A DNA stretch of 64,000 nucleotides from Methanospirillum sp. (GTDB lineage Archaea; Halobacteriota; Methanomicrobia; Methanomicrobiales; Methanospirillaceae). Each line of letters opens with the position of its first letter. The first letter of the stretch is position 1. The notes below the pieces were generated by a model. The model was not told the DNA's origin, searched no databases, and saw only the letters and a list, made by a program, of their open reading frames with translations. Where the stretch lies: contig JAAYEG010000056.1 of the NCBI GenBank assembly GCA_012728895.1, positions 1-64,000 on the forward strand, written 5' to 3'. Both the position numbers and the translations under genes were made by a program. Below are positions 58,301 through 63,987 of the stretch, one piece after another.

Positions 58301-59641
58301 CTAGTCCCGGGCGGTGTCCGTGAGCCGTTCCCCGAGGTACCGGATCAGGCCGTGGAGCCCGTCGGCCACCGGGTGGATCTCGTAGAAGTCCGAGAGACCG
58401 TCGACCCGGAGCCCGTGGCGGATCATCTCCGCGATGTACATGACGGGGAGGGCCGCCTCCGGGGCGGAGGCCGCGATCCCGGTGACCCGGGCCCCGCTCT
58501 CGTCGACGAAGACCTTCGCGACCCCGGTTCCACGGTCCGGGACGGCGAAGAACGAGCCCGGCCCGGCAGGGGCCGGGACCGCGTACGACCCGGTGGTCGC
58601 GCTCTCGTCGATGGCCCAGGCGTACTGGTTCCCGAGCCGGAAACCCCGGGGGACCAGCCGTCGGTCGGTCCGGGCCTCCCGCCCGAGGATGTTCTCTGCC
58701 GCGACCCGCCCCTCCTGCCGCGAGACCGGGGTGAGATAGGGCGGGCCGGTGACATCCCCGCAGGCGTAGACGCCGGGCACCGAGGTCCGCTGCCGGTCGT
58801 CCACGACGATCGTCCCGTCGCTTCTCTTCTCGACCCCCGCGCAGACCTCGCTGTTCGGTTCGAGGCCGATCGCTGCGATTACCGCGTCGACGGGGAACCC
58901 CTCCTCCTCTCCGCCCGACGAGACCGTCACGCCGTTCACCCGGCGCCCGCCGTCGACCGAGACCAGGCCGGTCTCCTCCCGGATCCTGACGTTCTCGAGC
59001 TCCCTGCGCGCGCACCGGTCGAGGTGGGGGTCGAGCCCCCGGAGTAGCCTGCTCCTGACGAGCAGGTCGACCTCGGCGCCGAACGCGGCGAAGATCCAGG
59101 CGAACTCGACGGCCTGGATCCCGCCCCCGACGATCGCGACCCGCCCGGGCACCTCCCTCATCGTGGCGATCGTGGCGGCCGTGTAGACCCCCTCGCGCGA
59201 GATCCCGGGGACCGCGGGGAGGGCAGGGCGGGAGCCGGTGGCGATGATGACGGCCCCGGACTCGACCGGCCGACCGTCGATCACGGCGCGCGTCCCGTCG
59301 AAACCGGCCGAGACACCGGAGACGACCTCCACCCCGGTCCCCTCCGTCTCGTCGGAGAGGACCCCGGTGATCGTCGACTGGATCCCGGCCATCGACCGGA
59401 AGAGGCCTTCCAGGTGGACCGACGGCTGGCCGGCGAGCACGCCGAGGGAGGCGAGCCGCCGTGCATCCACGACAGCCCGGGCGGCATCGTTCATCGCGTT
59501 CACGAGCATGCACCCGTAGAGCAGGCACTGCCCCCCGAGATTCCGCCTCTCGACCAGCCTGACCTGCCGGCCGGCGTTCGCGAGGTGCATCGCGGCGAAG
59601 CGACCCGCGGGCCCGCCGCCGATCACGGTGACCGGGTCCAT
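58301..59641 (-). CDS. FAD-dependent pyridine nucleotide-disulfide oxidoreductase family protein
   Basis: The 446-residue flavoprotein has the FAD dinucleotide fold 'VIGGGPAGRFAAMHLANAG' at residue 6, a disulfide-like redox pair in 'GGQCLLYGC' near 40 (C-X4-C), the NAD(P) fold 'VAIVGGGIQAVEFAWIFAAFG' near 170, and 'GVYACGDVTGPPYLTPVS' near 300. It is dihydrolipoamide-dehydrogenase-like, but its own partner is not identified. The start overlaps the stop of the unknown gene upstream (ATGA), so the two are co-translated. Confidence 0.9.
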   Translation of the reverse strand: MDPVTVIGGGPAGRFAAMHLANAGRQVRLVERRNLGGQCLLYGCMLVNAMNDAARAVVDARRLASLGVLAGQPSVHLEGLFRSMAGIQSTITGVLSDETEGTGVEVVSGVSAGFDGTRAVIDGRPVESGAVIIATGSRPALPAVPGISREGVYTAATIATMREVPGRVAIVGGGIQAVEFAWIFAAFGAEVDLLVRSRLLRGLDPHLDRCARRELENVRIREETGLVSVDGGRRVNGVTVSSGGEEEGFPVDAVIAAIGLEPNSEVCAGVEKRSDGTIVVDDRQRTSVPGVYACGDVTGPPYLTPVSRQEGRVAAENILGREARTDRRLVPRGFRLGNQYAWAIDESATTGSYAVPAPAGPGSFFAVPDRGTGVAKVFVDESGARVTGIAASAPEAALPVMYIAEMIRHGLRVDGLSDFYEIHPVADGLHGLIRYLGERLTDTARD

Positions 59642-60579
59642 CAGAGGATCTCCACGCCCTCGTCCATCGGGGAAGAGAGCGTCTCGCCCGAGTAGGCGTT
59701 TATCTCGACGATCGACCCCCCCGTGACCTGCCAGACCGGCACGAAGACCCGGGAGAGGTCCGTGCGGATCGAGCGGGGGTCGGGGCGGAAGACCTTCTCC
59801 TCGTAGAAGATCGCGTCGCGCCGCTCCTGGCGGATCCTGACCTTCTTGGTCAGGCTCCGGACGACGTGCTCGACGACCCTCTCCCCCGCGTCCTCGCGCG
59901 GGATCAGGGCTTCCATCACCTCCGTCCCGTCCGGCAGCCCCCCCCGCACGACGGGGAGCTCCTCGACCGCCTCGATCTCGCCGTTGATCGCGTTCAGCGC
60001 GAGCAGTCCCTCGTCGTCGAAGAGGATCGTATGGTTCTTGTAGGTCGTCCCCCCGGACGAGGAGTAGCGCGCGCACCAGAACGGGATCAGGCGGAGCCGG
60101 ACCGCCCCGTCGCTCCGGGCGAGCATGGAGGCCTCGCTCCCGGAGATCCGGACCGGGAGGTGGGGGATGCCGCCGGCCCCGGCATCTCTCTCCGGCTCGC
60201 GGAGCACTACCGGGGGCAGGGGGAGCGAGAGGTCGAGCGCGAGCTCCCGGCCGGTCACCCGGGCGCAGGCCGACCTCCCCGCGTAATCGACCAGGGCCGG
60301 GAGCCCCCAGGCGACACAGTGCTCCGCCCTTACCCGGTCGGAGGTCGAGAAGAGGATCTTTCGGCAGACGACCTCGCTCCCACCCGCCCTGACGCGGTAG
60401 ACGGTCTGGTCGAACGCGCTCCAATCGGCCTCGTCATCGCTGCAGAGCACGAGCACGCACTCGCCCCCGCGTATCGCCGAGAGGTCGAGTGGCGGGTCCA
60501 TCGGCGCCACGTCGAACGAGGCGGATTCCAGGATCCGGCCGATCTCCTCACGTGCACGCTCGCGGACCAGCTTGTCCAT
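59641..60579 (-). CDS. Conserved-looking protein of unknown function, coupled to the FAD oxidoreductase
   Basis: The 312-residue soluble protein has no recognised domain. The N-terminal 100 residues look like a small alpha/beta domain ('GGECVLVLCSDDEADWSAFDQTVYRV', 'GGSEVVCRKILFSTSDRVRAEHCVAWG'). The C-terminal 200 residues contain basic and aromatic segments such as 'RLRLIPFWCARYSSSGGTTYKNHTILFDDEG' and end with 'VFVPVWQVTGGSIVEINAYSGE', a pattern reminiscent of PepSY-like endings. Several cysteines could make it a redox partner of the downstream flavoprotein, but this is inference. Confidence 0.7.
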   Translation of the reverse strand: MDKLVRERAREEIGRILESASFDVAPMDPPLDLSAIRGGECVLVLCSDDEADWSAFDQTVYRVRAGGSEVVCRKILFSTSDRVRAEHCVAWGLPALVDYAGRSACARVTGRELALDLSLPLPPVVLREPERDAGAGGIPHLPVRISGSEASMLARSDGAVRLRLIPFWCARYSSSGGTTYKNHTILFDDEGLLALNAINGEIEAVEELPVVRGGLPDGTEVMEALIPREDAGERVVEHVVRSLTKKVRIRQERRDAIFYEEKVFRPDPRSIRTDLSRVFVPVWQVTGGSIVEINAYSGETLSSPMDEGVEIL

Positions 60580-60637: not shown

Positions 60638-61417
60638 ATGATGACCCCGTTCCTCATGTTCGTCAACCACCAGATCGAGAATTACGCGATGCAGGTCACG
60701 TACGACCCGGTCAGTGGAAAGGGACGGGTGGTCTACAACCTCTCGCTCGTTCGCGCGGGCGACCTGCCTGCCGTCCTCGAGGTGATCCGGGTCACCTGCC
60801 TCTCGGGGGTGAGCTCCTCCGACCTGGTCCGGGTCGTCCGCGGCGGGGAGTCGATAGACGGCTACACGGTTCCCGAGGGCCAGGCCGGGATCTGCACGGT
60901 CTGTTCGGTCACGCTCGACGGGATCCTCCTGCAGCGCGGCATCCCGTTCCACCCGATCGGCGGCGGTGTCGTCGAGATCGTCGACCGTATCCCGCGCCGG
61001 TTCACGCACCTCATCCACTTCGACGAGACGACGATCGACCCGACCCAGGTCCTGATCGCCGACGAGATCTCCTCGGTCGGCGAGGTGATCCGGACCGGGA
61101 ACGGCACGGTCCTCGCCAACATCCGCGAGTGCCACATGGAGGCGGAATCGGCGGTCGCCGAGCTGCTCGACGACCTGGCGGGGAGCCGGTTCATGGGTGT
61201 GCTCGAGGTCGGGCTTCCGAACAGCCCGATACTCGGAGTCCCGGTCAGCCCGCAGTACATGGGGGTGATCGCGCTCGGGGGCACCAATCTCATCGCGGCG
61301 GTCCGCGAGGCCGGATACCCGGTCTCGTTCCTCGCCATGAGGGGTGTGATGGAGGTCGAGGAGATGATCGCCATCGAGCAGCAGGTCGCCGTCCTCGAAC
61401 CCGGGACGGCAGGTTGA
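60638..61417 (+). CDS. NrpR regulatory-domain (DUF128) protein, NrpRII-like
   Basis: The 259-residue protein is a single NrpR/DUF128 domain: 'VTYDPVSGKGRVVYNLSLV', 'GICTVCSVTLDGILLQRGIPFHPIGGGVVEI', 'GEVIRTGNGTVLANIRECHMEAES' and 'LGGTNLIAAVREAGYP'. NrpR represses nitrogen genes in methanogens and senses 2-oxoglutarate. Here no helix-turn-helix is present at the N-terminus, as in NrpRII of Methanosarcina, which works with a separate DNA-binding NrpRI. The start follows a strong ribosome site (AGGAGG at 60625-60630). Confidence 0.85.
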   Translation: MMTPFLMFVNHQIENYAMQVTYDPVSGKGRVVYNLSLVRAGDLPAVLEVIRVTCLSGVSSSDLVRVVRGGESIDGYTVPEGQAGICTVCSVTLDGILLQRGIPFHPIGGGVVEIVDRIPRRFTHLIHFDETTIDPTQVLIADEISSVGEVIRTGNGTVLANIRECHMEAESAVAELLDDLAGSRFMGVLEVGLPNSPILGVPVSPQYMGVIALGGTNLIAAVREAGYPVSFLAMRGVMEVEEMIAIEQQVAVLEPGTAG

Positions 61418-62402: not shown

Positions 62403-63161
62403 CTAGAAGCCCGGGGAGTCCCCGAAAAGGGAGATCGGCGCTCTCCGCTTGTGGCCGGCGGCCCGCACCCGGGCGAGCACCTGCTCCTCGACCGGCGTCC
62501 GGGCAGTCCACCCGCCCGACTCGAGCTCCTCGAGCGCGCCGTCGATCTCGGCGTAGGTGAGGCCGAGCTCGTCCTCGTCCCGCTGTCCCGGCCAGAGGCC
62601 GGCCGTCGGCGGCTTCTCGATGATCCGTTGGGGGAGCCCGAGCTCGCGGCCGAGCCGGCAGACATCCCGCTTGTAGAGGTGGAGGAGCGGCTGGACGTCG
62701 GCAGCGCTGTCGCCCCACTTCGTCGAGTAGCCGAGCAGGTACTCGGTCCGGTTCGAGGTGCCGCAGACGAGCCGGCCGTCGCGGTTCGCGACGTGGTAGA
62801 GCACGGTCATCCGCGTCCGGGCCATCACGTTCCCGAGCAGGACCGGACCCGGGTCGAACCCGGGCAGTCGCCGGTAGCTGTCGAGCACGGGCTCGATCGA
62901 GACCACCCGGTGTTCGCACCCGAGAAGGCGGCAGAGTTCGGCCGCGTCCTCGAGGTCGGCGGGGTCGCTCACACCGGTCGGGAGCGAGAGGGCGAGCACG
63001 CTCCCGGGCCCGAGCGCCCGGGCGCAGACTGCAGCGGCCACGGACGAATCGATCCCCCCCGAGACCCCGATCACGACGCCCCGTGTTTCGCTCTCCCAGT
63101 AGATGTGCCGGATCATCTGTTCGATCCGGTTCAGCTCGCAGCCGCACCCACCCCCGGTCAT
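62403..63161 (-). CDS. nadE: NH3-dependent NAD+ synthetase
   Basis: The 252-residue ATP-pyrophosphatase has the PP-loop 'GVSGGIDSSVAAAVCARALG' near residue 33 (SGGxDS). Substrate-site segments are 'VANRDGRLVCGTSNRTEYLLGYSTKWGDSAADVQPL' near 125 and 'KRDVCRLGRELGLPQRIIEKPPTAGLWPGQRDEDELG' near 165. It amidates deamido-NAD with ammonia. The ATG at 63161 removes an implausible Pro/Arg-rich extension. A cysteine pair near the start (GGCGCE) is unusual. Confidence 0.95.
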   Translation of the reverse strand: MTGGGCGCELNRIEQMIRHIYWESETRGVVIGVSGGIDSSVAAAVCARALGPGSVLALSLPTGVSDPADLEDAAELCRLLGCEHRVVSIEPVLDSYRRLPGFDPGPVLLGNVMARTRMTVLYHVANRDGRLVCGTSNRTEYLLGYSTKWGDSAADVQPLLHLYKRDVCRLGRELGLPQRIIEKPPTAGLWPGQRDEDELGLTYAEIDGALEELESGGWTARTPVEEQVLARVRAAGHKRRAPISLFGDSPGF

Positions 63162-63201
63162 CGGTTCCACACAGAGTGATCGGGGTTGAAACCTTAACTC
63201 G

Positions 63202-63987
63202 TTACCTCCGGCAGGCGCGGCGCGGAGCGTCCCGGGCAGGGCCGGGGGGCCGGGGTCCGGGACGGGCGTCACCGGCCGTCCCCCGGACTCCGCGGTCCCC
63301 GGACCCGAGTTCGGTTATCGCGCCCGCGACCCTGACCAGCGCGAACGGCGCGGAGGGGTGGGCCGCGGCGTGCCTCGCGAGCTCCTCCGCCGCGAACGCC
63401 AGGACGGGGTCGGGAGCCCCCCTCGGCCCGCCGGCCGGAGGGACCGCCTCTCCCGAGACGAGGGCGAGGTAGAGGCCCACCTCGGTCGCGGGGACGTGCT
63501 GAAACGGGCGGACGACCCGGAGACCGTCCTGCACCCTACCGTCGGCGAGTGTCGCCTGCCGGCCCGCGAGCACCGCCCCGAGCACGGAGGACGCCATCTC
63601 CTCGAGCGTGGTGGGGAGGGCGAGCACGTTGCACCCCAGGCCGGCGGCCGCACTCTCCGGGCCACGGTCGCCGATCGCGGCCACCTCCACCCCCTCCGGG
63701 AGGCCCGGCGGGGCCGACTCCCCGGGGAGGAGGGCGACGAGAACCGTGTCCCGGCGCCGGCCGAACTGCCGCACCGCGAACCAGAGGAGGGCCGCTCCCG
63801 CGCCCCCCTCTTCAACGAACACGCCGACCCGCTCCCGCGTCCCGAGACCGCCCTGCTGCCGGATCGCCCGCTTTCCACGCGCCTCGATATCGCGGAGCAG
63901 GTGCTCCGCGCAGAGCGCGCGGCCCGAGTACGCCTGGAACGCGACCGCCTCGCGCCGGCACCGGCTGCACCGTGCGAACTCCATCAC
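63202..63987 (-). CDS. Degenerate TtuA/Ncs6-like protein lacking the ATP-binding motif
   Basis: The 261-residue protein begins with the zinc-binding start of the TtuA/Ncs6 tRNA-thiolation family ('CSRCRREAVAFQAYSGRALCAEHLLRDIEARGKRAIRQ'). It keeps a late family segment ('VRPFQHVPATEVGLYLALVSGE' near residue 165). In TtuA, the SGGKDS PP-loop follows the first region; here that position reads 'FVEEGGAGAALLWFAV' and the lysine and aspartate are missing. It therefore cannot bind ATP in the normal way. The C-terminus is Pro/Arg-rich and may be extended by frameshift or decay. The start ATG lies at the window's edge with TATA-like TTTTAATG upstream. Confidence 0.75.
   Translation of the reverse strand: MMEFARCSRCRREAVAFQAYSGRALCAEHLLRDIEARGKRAIRQQGGLGTRERVGVFVEEGGAGAALLWFAVRQFGRRRDTVLVALLPGESAPPGLPEGVEVAAIGDRGPESAAAGLGCNVLALPTTLEEMASSVLGAVLAGRQATLADGRVQDGLRVVRPFQHVPATEVGLYLALVSGEAVPPAGGPRGAPDPVLAFAAEELARHAAAHPSAPFALVRVAGAITELGSGDRGVRGTAGDARPGPRPPGPARDAPRRACRR

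Follow-up and report, generated by a model that had tools for sequence, protein, structure and literature searches.

A catalytically dead NcsA relative in Methanomicrobiales and its possible pairing with a second, intact NcsA

The window, a 64,000-nucleotide stretch of a Methanospirillum sp. genome (contig JAAYEG010000056.1), carries near its end a gene that is best read as the vertically inherited ncsA of Methanomicrobiales, the gene for the U34-tRNA 2-thiolase, turned into a pseudoenzyme. Its sequence supports a maintained, catalytically dead relative of NcsA and TtuA. We give a probability of about 0.5 to the reading that this protein and the other degenerate copies at its locus act as a non-catalytic subunit, or tRNA-positioning partner, of a second and carrier-fed NcsA, and would thus be an independent analogue of Ncs2/Ctu2. 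In the following, P1 denotes orthologues of the window gene and P2 those of the second NcsA on contig C67 of the window genome. The first set comprised 61 genomes (the window genome and 60 relatives), from which 59 P1 and 32 P2 loci were fetched for protein extraction.

Results

The window gene and its locus

The features of the window gene and its neighbour are collected in Table 1. A Pfam search matched TtuA_LIM_N to residues 6-30 of the window P1 (E 2.9e-10) and returned neither a PP-loop domain nor any further domain, while the NcsA family of NCBIfam covered residues 6-46 only. Alignment showed that the first two [4Fe-4S] cysteines fall inside a deleted segment, that the third is substituted and that the C-terminal zinc ribbon is absent. 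A structure model of P1 built from six sequences (pLDDT 78.5, pTM 0.77) nevertheless had NcsA 6scy as its best structural match in VIA-align (Z 21.2, rmsd 3.0, 215 residues), followed by TtuA (Z 19-20) and then TilS (Z 17.2). Zinc finger and fold of an NcsA are therefore present, whereas PP-loop, cluster cysteines and C-terminal ribbon are not. The adjoining gene encodes a full-length NadE (PF02540, E 3.4e-66), downstream of P1 on the same strand across a gap of 40 bp (63162-63201). A preliminary description of this DNA, made from its letters, had claimed a zinc-binding start, a lost SGGKDS and an adjoining PP-loop ATPase, and all three are borne out by PF22082, by EEGGAGAA in place of the motif and by PF02540, respectively.

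Table 1. Coordinates of the degenerate ncsA copy, its parts and the adjoining nadE in the window
Feature	Position	Strand	Remarks
Degenerate NcsA (P1)	63202-63984	-	260 aa, stop within coordinates; ATG at 63984; from ORF list, families, homologues and model
Alternative start of P1	GTG at 63987	-	frame 63202-63987 open over 261 codons
N-terminal zinc finger (TtuA_LIM_N, PF22082)	63898-63972	-	CxxC...CxxH and QxYSG loop; invariant across degenerate copies
Site of lost PP-loop	63790-63813	-	EEGGAGAA for SGGKDSSA; window residues 58-65; from alignment columns
Approximate junction of deleted segment with first two [4Fe-4S] cysteines	63650-63670	-	gap after window residue 106
Retained His-Pro motif (H209-P210)	63355-63360	-	invariant in 28/28 degenerate and 28/28 intact copies
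nadE, NAD+ synthase, PP-loop intact	62403-63161	-	start picked by eye; longer ORF from 63272

At the corresponding locus, congeners encode a protein of this kind, with a mutual identity of 43-69%. Near relatives that have a name are MAGs of uncultivated Methanoregulaceae/Methanomicrobiales, and plasmid records gave no match. RIO2 diverges upstream of P1 in 57 of the 59 P1 loci. In an NcsA tree, for which 28 of 30 fetched loci served as outgroup (the motif rule gave no row in the other two), intact P1 grouped with NcsA from further lineages within the phylum, while a separate and fully supported clade held P2. The RIO2 synteny and the grouping of intact P1 with other archaeal NcsA together indicate that P1 is the vertical ncsA, and that the window protein stands in its place.

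Loss and retention among degenerate copies

We compared 57 P1 proteins, 28 of them degenerate and 29 intact, after two rows had been dropped (G002, whose contig ends before the PP-loop, and G015, with its N-terminus cut off); G023 and G058 were without P1. Degenerate was defined as any departure from SGGKDS, so that the class also counts the early cases G055 (SGDGDS) and G011 (SGDKNS). The PP-loop lysine was kept in one of the 28 degenerate copies and the PP-loop aspartate likewise in one. All three cluster cysteines were retained in 3/28 (G007, G011, G055), and the four C-terminal ribbon cysteines in 4/28 (G010, G011, G027, G055). Early steps of degeneration are visible in G088, G094, G116 and G127, with graded PP-loop variants (SGSKDS in G088, SGGKNS in G127, SGSKGS in G094) leading to wholesale loss. 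By contrast, an open frame and a zinc finger were present in all 28, and 13 alignment columns were invariant among them. In G039 numbering these are the zinc ligands C3, C6, C22 and H25 together with Q14, Y16, S17, G18, R39, P198, E206, H245 and P246. The H245-P246 pair is the late motif claimed in the preliminary description, which thus proves real and general; the intact rows of the conservation alignment number 28, the G033 fragment being left out. One in-frame TAG interrupts the P1 match of G063. The G100 draft holds two different P1 copies devoid of a PP-loop (L138 and L155), representing either a duplicated pseudoenzyme or contamination.

Codon models gave an omega of 0.129-0.130 for degenerate P1 of the window genus and of 0.177, 0.200, 0.282 and 0.465 for that of genera g20, g12, g22 and g16, respectively, compared with 0.066-0.067 for intact P1 and 0.085-0.097 for P2. 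With the null maximised over ten kappa values, omega = 1 was rejected in every set (p <= 2.4e-8 for the five degenerate genera). The computable pairwise omega values were all below 1, several pairs having failed by saturation. Degenerate P1 is under purifying selection, relaxed relative to the intact copies but not free.

A second NcsA and its putative sulfur carrier

The preliminary description had proposed looking for the functional gene elsewhere, and a second, intact NcsA with SGGKDSS and CTICG motifs was found in the window genome at G000:C67:22794-23909. SGGKDS and the three cluster cysteines were retained in 32/32 P2. The QxYSG loop is a P1-type motif that P2 lacks. We take P2 to be arCOG00042. 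An HGG-ending ORF abuts P2 or lies at most 60 bp upstream on the same strand in 32 of 32 loci, compared with none of 59 P1 loci. Eight of these carrier ORFs were tested against Pfam ThiS and/or SAMP2; four reached the cut-off, three fell below it and one had no match. In passages of an earlier study, several archaeal lineages show ThiS-family genes in association with the PP-loop ATPase of arCOG00042 (PMC2948915). Judged by its motifs and neighbours, P2 looks like a self-contained carrier-plus-thiolase cassette.

Outside the order, locus L198 (G155:C1:957000-961500) holds a P2-like gene with a carrier and with a single TAG inside the ncsA frame. This gene could be a copy acquired by transfer or a pseudogene, or the TAG could be a read-through codon. 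Genes of NAD biosynthesis occur near both ncsA copies, with nadE by P1 and nadA by P2 in 17/32 loci, and we found no reason for this.

Co-occurrence of P2 with degenerate P1

P2 was present with 26/28 degenerate but only 4/29 intact P1 (Fisher p 7e-10), and at a completeness of at least 95% with 19/19 and 3/25, respectively. P1 changed state at least 8 times (bootstrap 7-9) on a tree of 57 RIO2 rows, with 3 changes forced by well-supported branches; RIO2 stands in for the species tree here as one gene with long branches. The loss of the PP-loop, for which the preliminary description had called for a comparison of orthologues, is thus recurrent.

A survey of the order covered 135 genomes of at least 90% completeness among the matches listed. 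P1 was read in 24 of 28 further genomes, most of them picked for having two NcsA matches and hence biased towards P2; the four left unread were G142 and G058, in which no P1 was found, and G063 and G074. In this enlarged set, with the P2 status of added rows taken from survey matches rather than from the tree, P2 accompanied 45/48 degenerate and 8/33 intact P1, and the enlarged RIO2 tree showed 12 state changes, 5 of them forced by well-supported branches. Phylogenetically independent pairs on well-supported branches numbered 3 and 5 in the two trees and were not significant. The genera g11, g20, g21, g25 and g30 each contain P2-bearing degenerate members as well as members with a single full-length NcsA, the single copy in g30 being known from its survey match; classes P1 and P2 were assigned by sequence in the two read sets.

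The association has exceptions in both directions. P2 was not detected with three degenerate P1, those of G005 (66% complete), G053 (91%) and G101 (96%), and eight genomes combine P2 with an intact P1, indicating that P2 does not force loss of the PP-loop. Among the P2 genomes of the first set, 31/32 carry P1. The one without it, G058, has a RIO2 match truncated at its N-terminal end, on the side facing P1, which would fit a contig break. G142, which has P2 and no P1, was rejected as a case of gene loss because RIO2 and the next gene are missing too.

After removal of RIO2 distances, the distances among degenerate P1 correlated with those among P2 (partial r 0.44 for 20 genomes and 0.51 for 25 genomes, p 0.0005). 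The correlation with NadE (partial r 0.32, p 0.02, 20 genomes) also passes p 0.05. The data give weak support for a co-evolution of P1 with P2 that exceeds that with NadE.

Discussion

U34 thiolation has been described to rely on one NcsA in archaea and on a pair in eukaryotes, and recombinant production of the eukaryotic pair did not succeed (PMC10067955). According to passages of the same study, each chain of the M. maripaludis NcsA homodimer has three metal sites, and the terminal zinc domains were suggested to move so as to clamp the tRNA at its anticodon loop. In human Ctu2 the cluster cysteines are missing and the zinc sites retained; modelled in the second dimer position with Ctu1, the protein most likely ensures tRNA orientation (PMC10067955). 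Degenerate P1 fits this description of Ctu2 save for the C-terminal zinc site, and we therefore propose a P1-P2 heterodimer. The window P1 shares fold, N-terminal zinc finger and, through the intact P1 of its relatives, syntenic orthology with archaeal NcsA (M. maripaludis 6scy; H. volcanii), from which it differs in its lost PP-loop, [4Fe-4S] ligands and C-terminal ribbon; the archaeal systems described have one NcsA, compared with P1 plus P2 here. With TtuA, the U54 thiolase with carrier TtuB, it shares the fold and a LIM-type N-terminus (PF22082) but not the catalytic residues, nor does a carrier gene stand at the P1 locus. P2 with its SAMP2/ThiS-like gene belongs to the same family and the same genome as the window P1, but is catalytically intact by motifs and linked to a carrier.

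In the pathway that we propose, P2 behind its own ThiS/SAMP2-like carrier would now perform the U34 thiolation chemistry, as its intact motifs suggest. The old P1 would have lost ATP activation and the Fe-S site first, and then the central segment and the C-terminal zinc ribbon, while keeping the N-terminal finger, the first helix, the core fold and the C-terminal HP motif. It would pair with P2 in an NcsA-type dimer in which P2 is catalytic and P1 helps to hold the tRNA. We infer the dimer, the tRNA role of P1 and the order of P2 gain and P1 loss alike.

Passive decay, in which ncsA became redundant once P2 took over and is eroding towards loss, would account for the graded intermediates in G088, G127 and G094, the raised omega relative to intact copies, the shrinkage of P1 with loss of its ribbon, and the TAG in G063. 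It is, however, at odds with the open frames and zinc fingers that every one of the 28 degenerate P1 in the first set possesses, with the 13 residues invariant across families, with omega below 1 in five genera and with the persistence of P1 in 31/32 P2 genomes of that set, the RIO2 region being incomplete in the exception G058 as well as in the later genome G142. We thus consider decay unlikely, in agreement with the preliminary description, which had argued from the intact frame that the gene is not simply decaying; a maintained dead relative is the better account. An equally improbable alternative is a repurposed zinc-finger protein acting without P2, such as a tRNA- or ribosome-binding regulator near RIO2. 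The RIO2 synteny would suit it, as would a conservation that is strongest at the N-terminal finger and the QxYSG loop, but the whole fold is kept, as are core residues at a distance from the finger (P198, E206 and H245-P246), and this, like the association with P2, points to the thiolase system.

The preliminary description had raised the neighbouring NadE as a possible partner, for which P1 would have a regulatory or structural role. The two genes are co-directional and closely spaced in the window, and the partial distance correlation is in its favour. Within the fetched flank, however, nadE accompanies intact P1 as commonly (24/28) as degenerate P1 (21/28), indicating that the linkage predates PP-loop loss; it is ancestral and no stronger in degenerate copies. 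Moreover, many genomes have a channel/TrkA-like gene between P1 and nadE, among them all five congeners in which nadE is within reach. NadE partnership was accordingly dropped as the main idea and is very improbable, the second NcsA being the better candidate partner. With its cluster cysteines lost, P1 is unlikely to have a sulfur-carrying role, which had also been raised there. It had further been asked whether the lost motif might reflect a sequencing error or a gene without orthologues. Orthologues exist at the RIO2-flanked ncsA locus of Methanomicrobiales, and the intact ones among them are what would lend colour to an intact ncsA that was misread, frameshifted or misassembled; yet the degenerate state recurs in congeners assembled separately, public MAG records among them, and PP-loop, cluster cysteines and ribbon are affected together. 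Sequencing error is thus refuted by the congeners, and an artefact of any kind is extremely improbable.

Like Ncs2/Ctu2, degenerate P1 is an NcsA relative that lost the cluster cysteines and kept a zinc site, with one intact catalytic relative alongside and a ubiquitin-like carrier in the system. Unlike Ncs2/Ctu2, the P1 pseudoenzymes arose several times within Methanomicrobiales from the local ncsA, and the synteny that they share with intact copies from those genera argues for an origin separate from that of eukaryotic Ncs2. The window P1 keeps the N-terminal zinc site and most degenerate P1 lack the C-terminal ribbon, whereas human Ctu2 has both sites; the carrier gene is found beside the catalytic P2, and the P1-P2 complex is a proposal from genes. 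It is a tentative reading, at slightly less than even odds, that the arrangement known from eukaryotes has been rebuilt several times in Methanomicrobiales, with a ubiquitin-like carrier, a catalytic subunit (P2) and a dead one (P1). If the pairing holds, archaea would possess a two-subunit U34 thiolase, of which the natural pair would offer a possible model for the eukaryotic complex. Lineages at each stage of subunit death could then reveal what a dead subunit is for, with intact, half-degraded and dead partners in related species forming a replicated natural experiment on why a homodimer gains one. Among the open-access papers listed, titles and abstract openings held nothing recognisable on dead NcsA copies in Methanomicrobiales.

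Some further genes around the locus deserve mention. The gene found between P1 and nadE in congeners, classed by eye as channel/TrkA-like, is about 1.6 kb long and missing in the window genome. Beyond the window, two adjacent ORFs that by eye resemble YeeE/YedE sulfur-transport proteins lie upstream of P1 on its contig, at a distance of about 4-5 kb (L035 12742-13938). In the window, the NrpR regulatory domains 1 and 2 (PF01995, E 1.9e-83) span the ORF at 60641-61414, a stand-alone regulatory half with no other Pfam domain. A 312-aa ORF at 59641-60579, with no Pfam match at E 0.001, lies upstream of a pyridine-nucleotide-oxidoreductase-like ORF (by eye).
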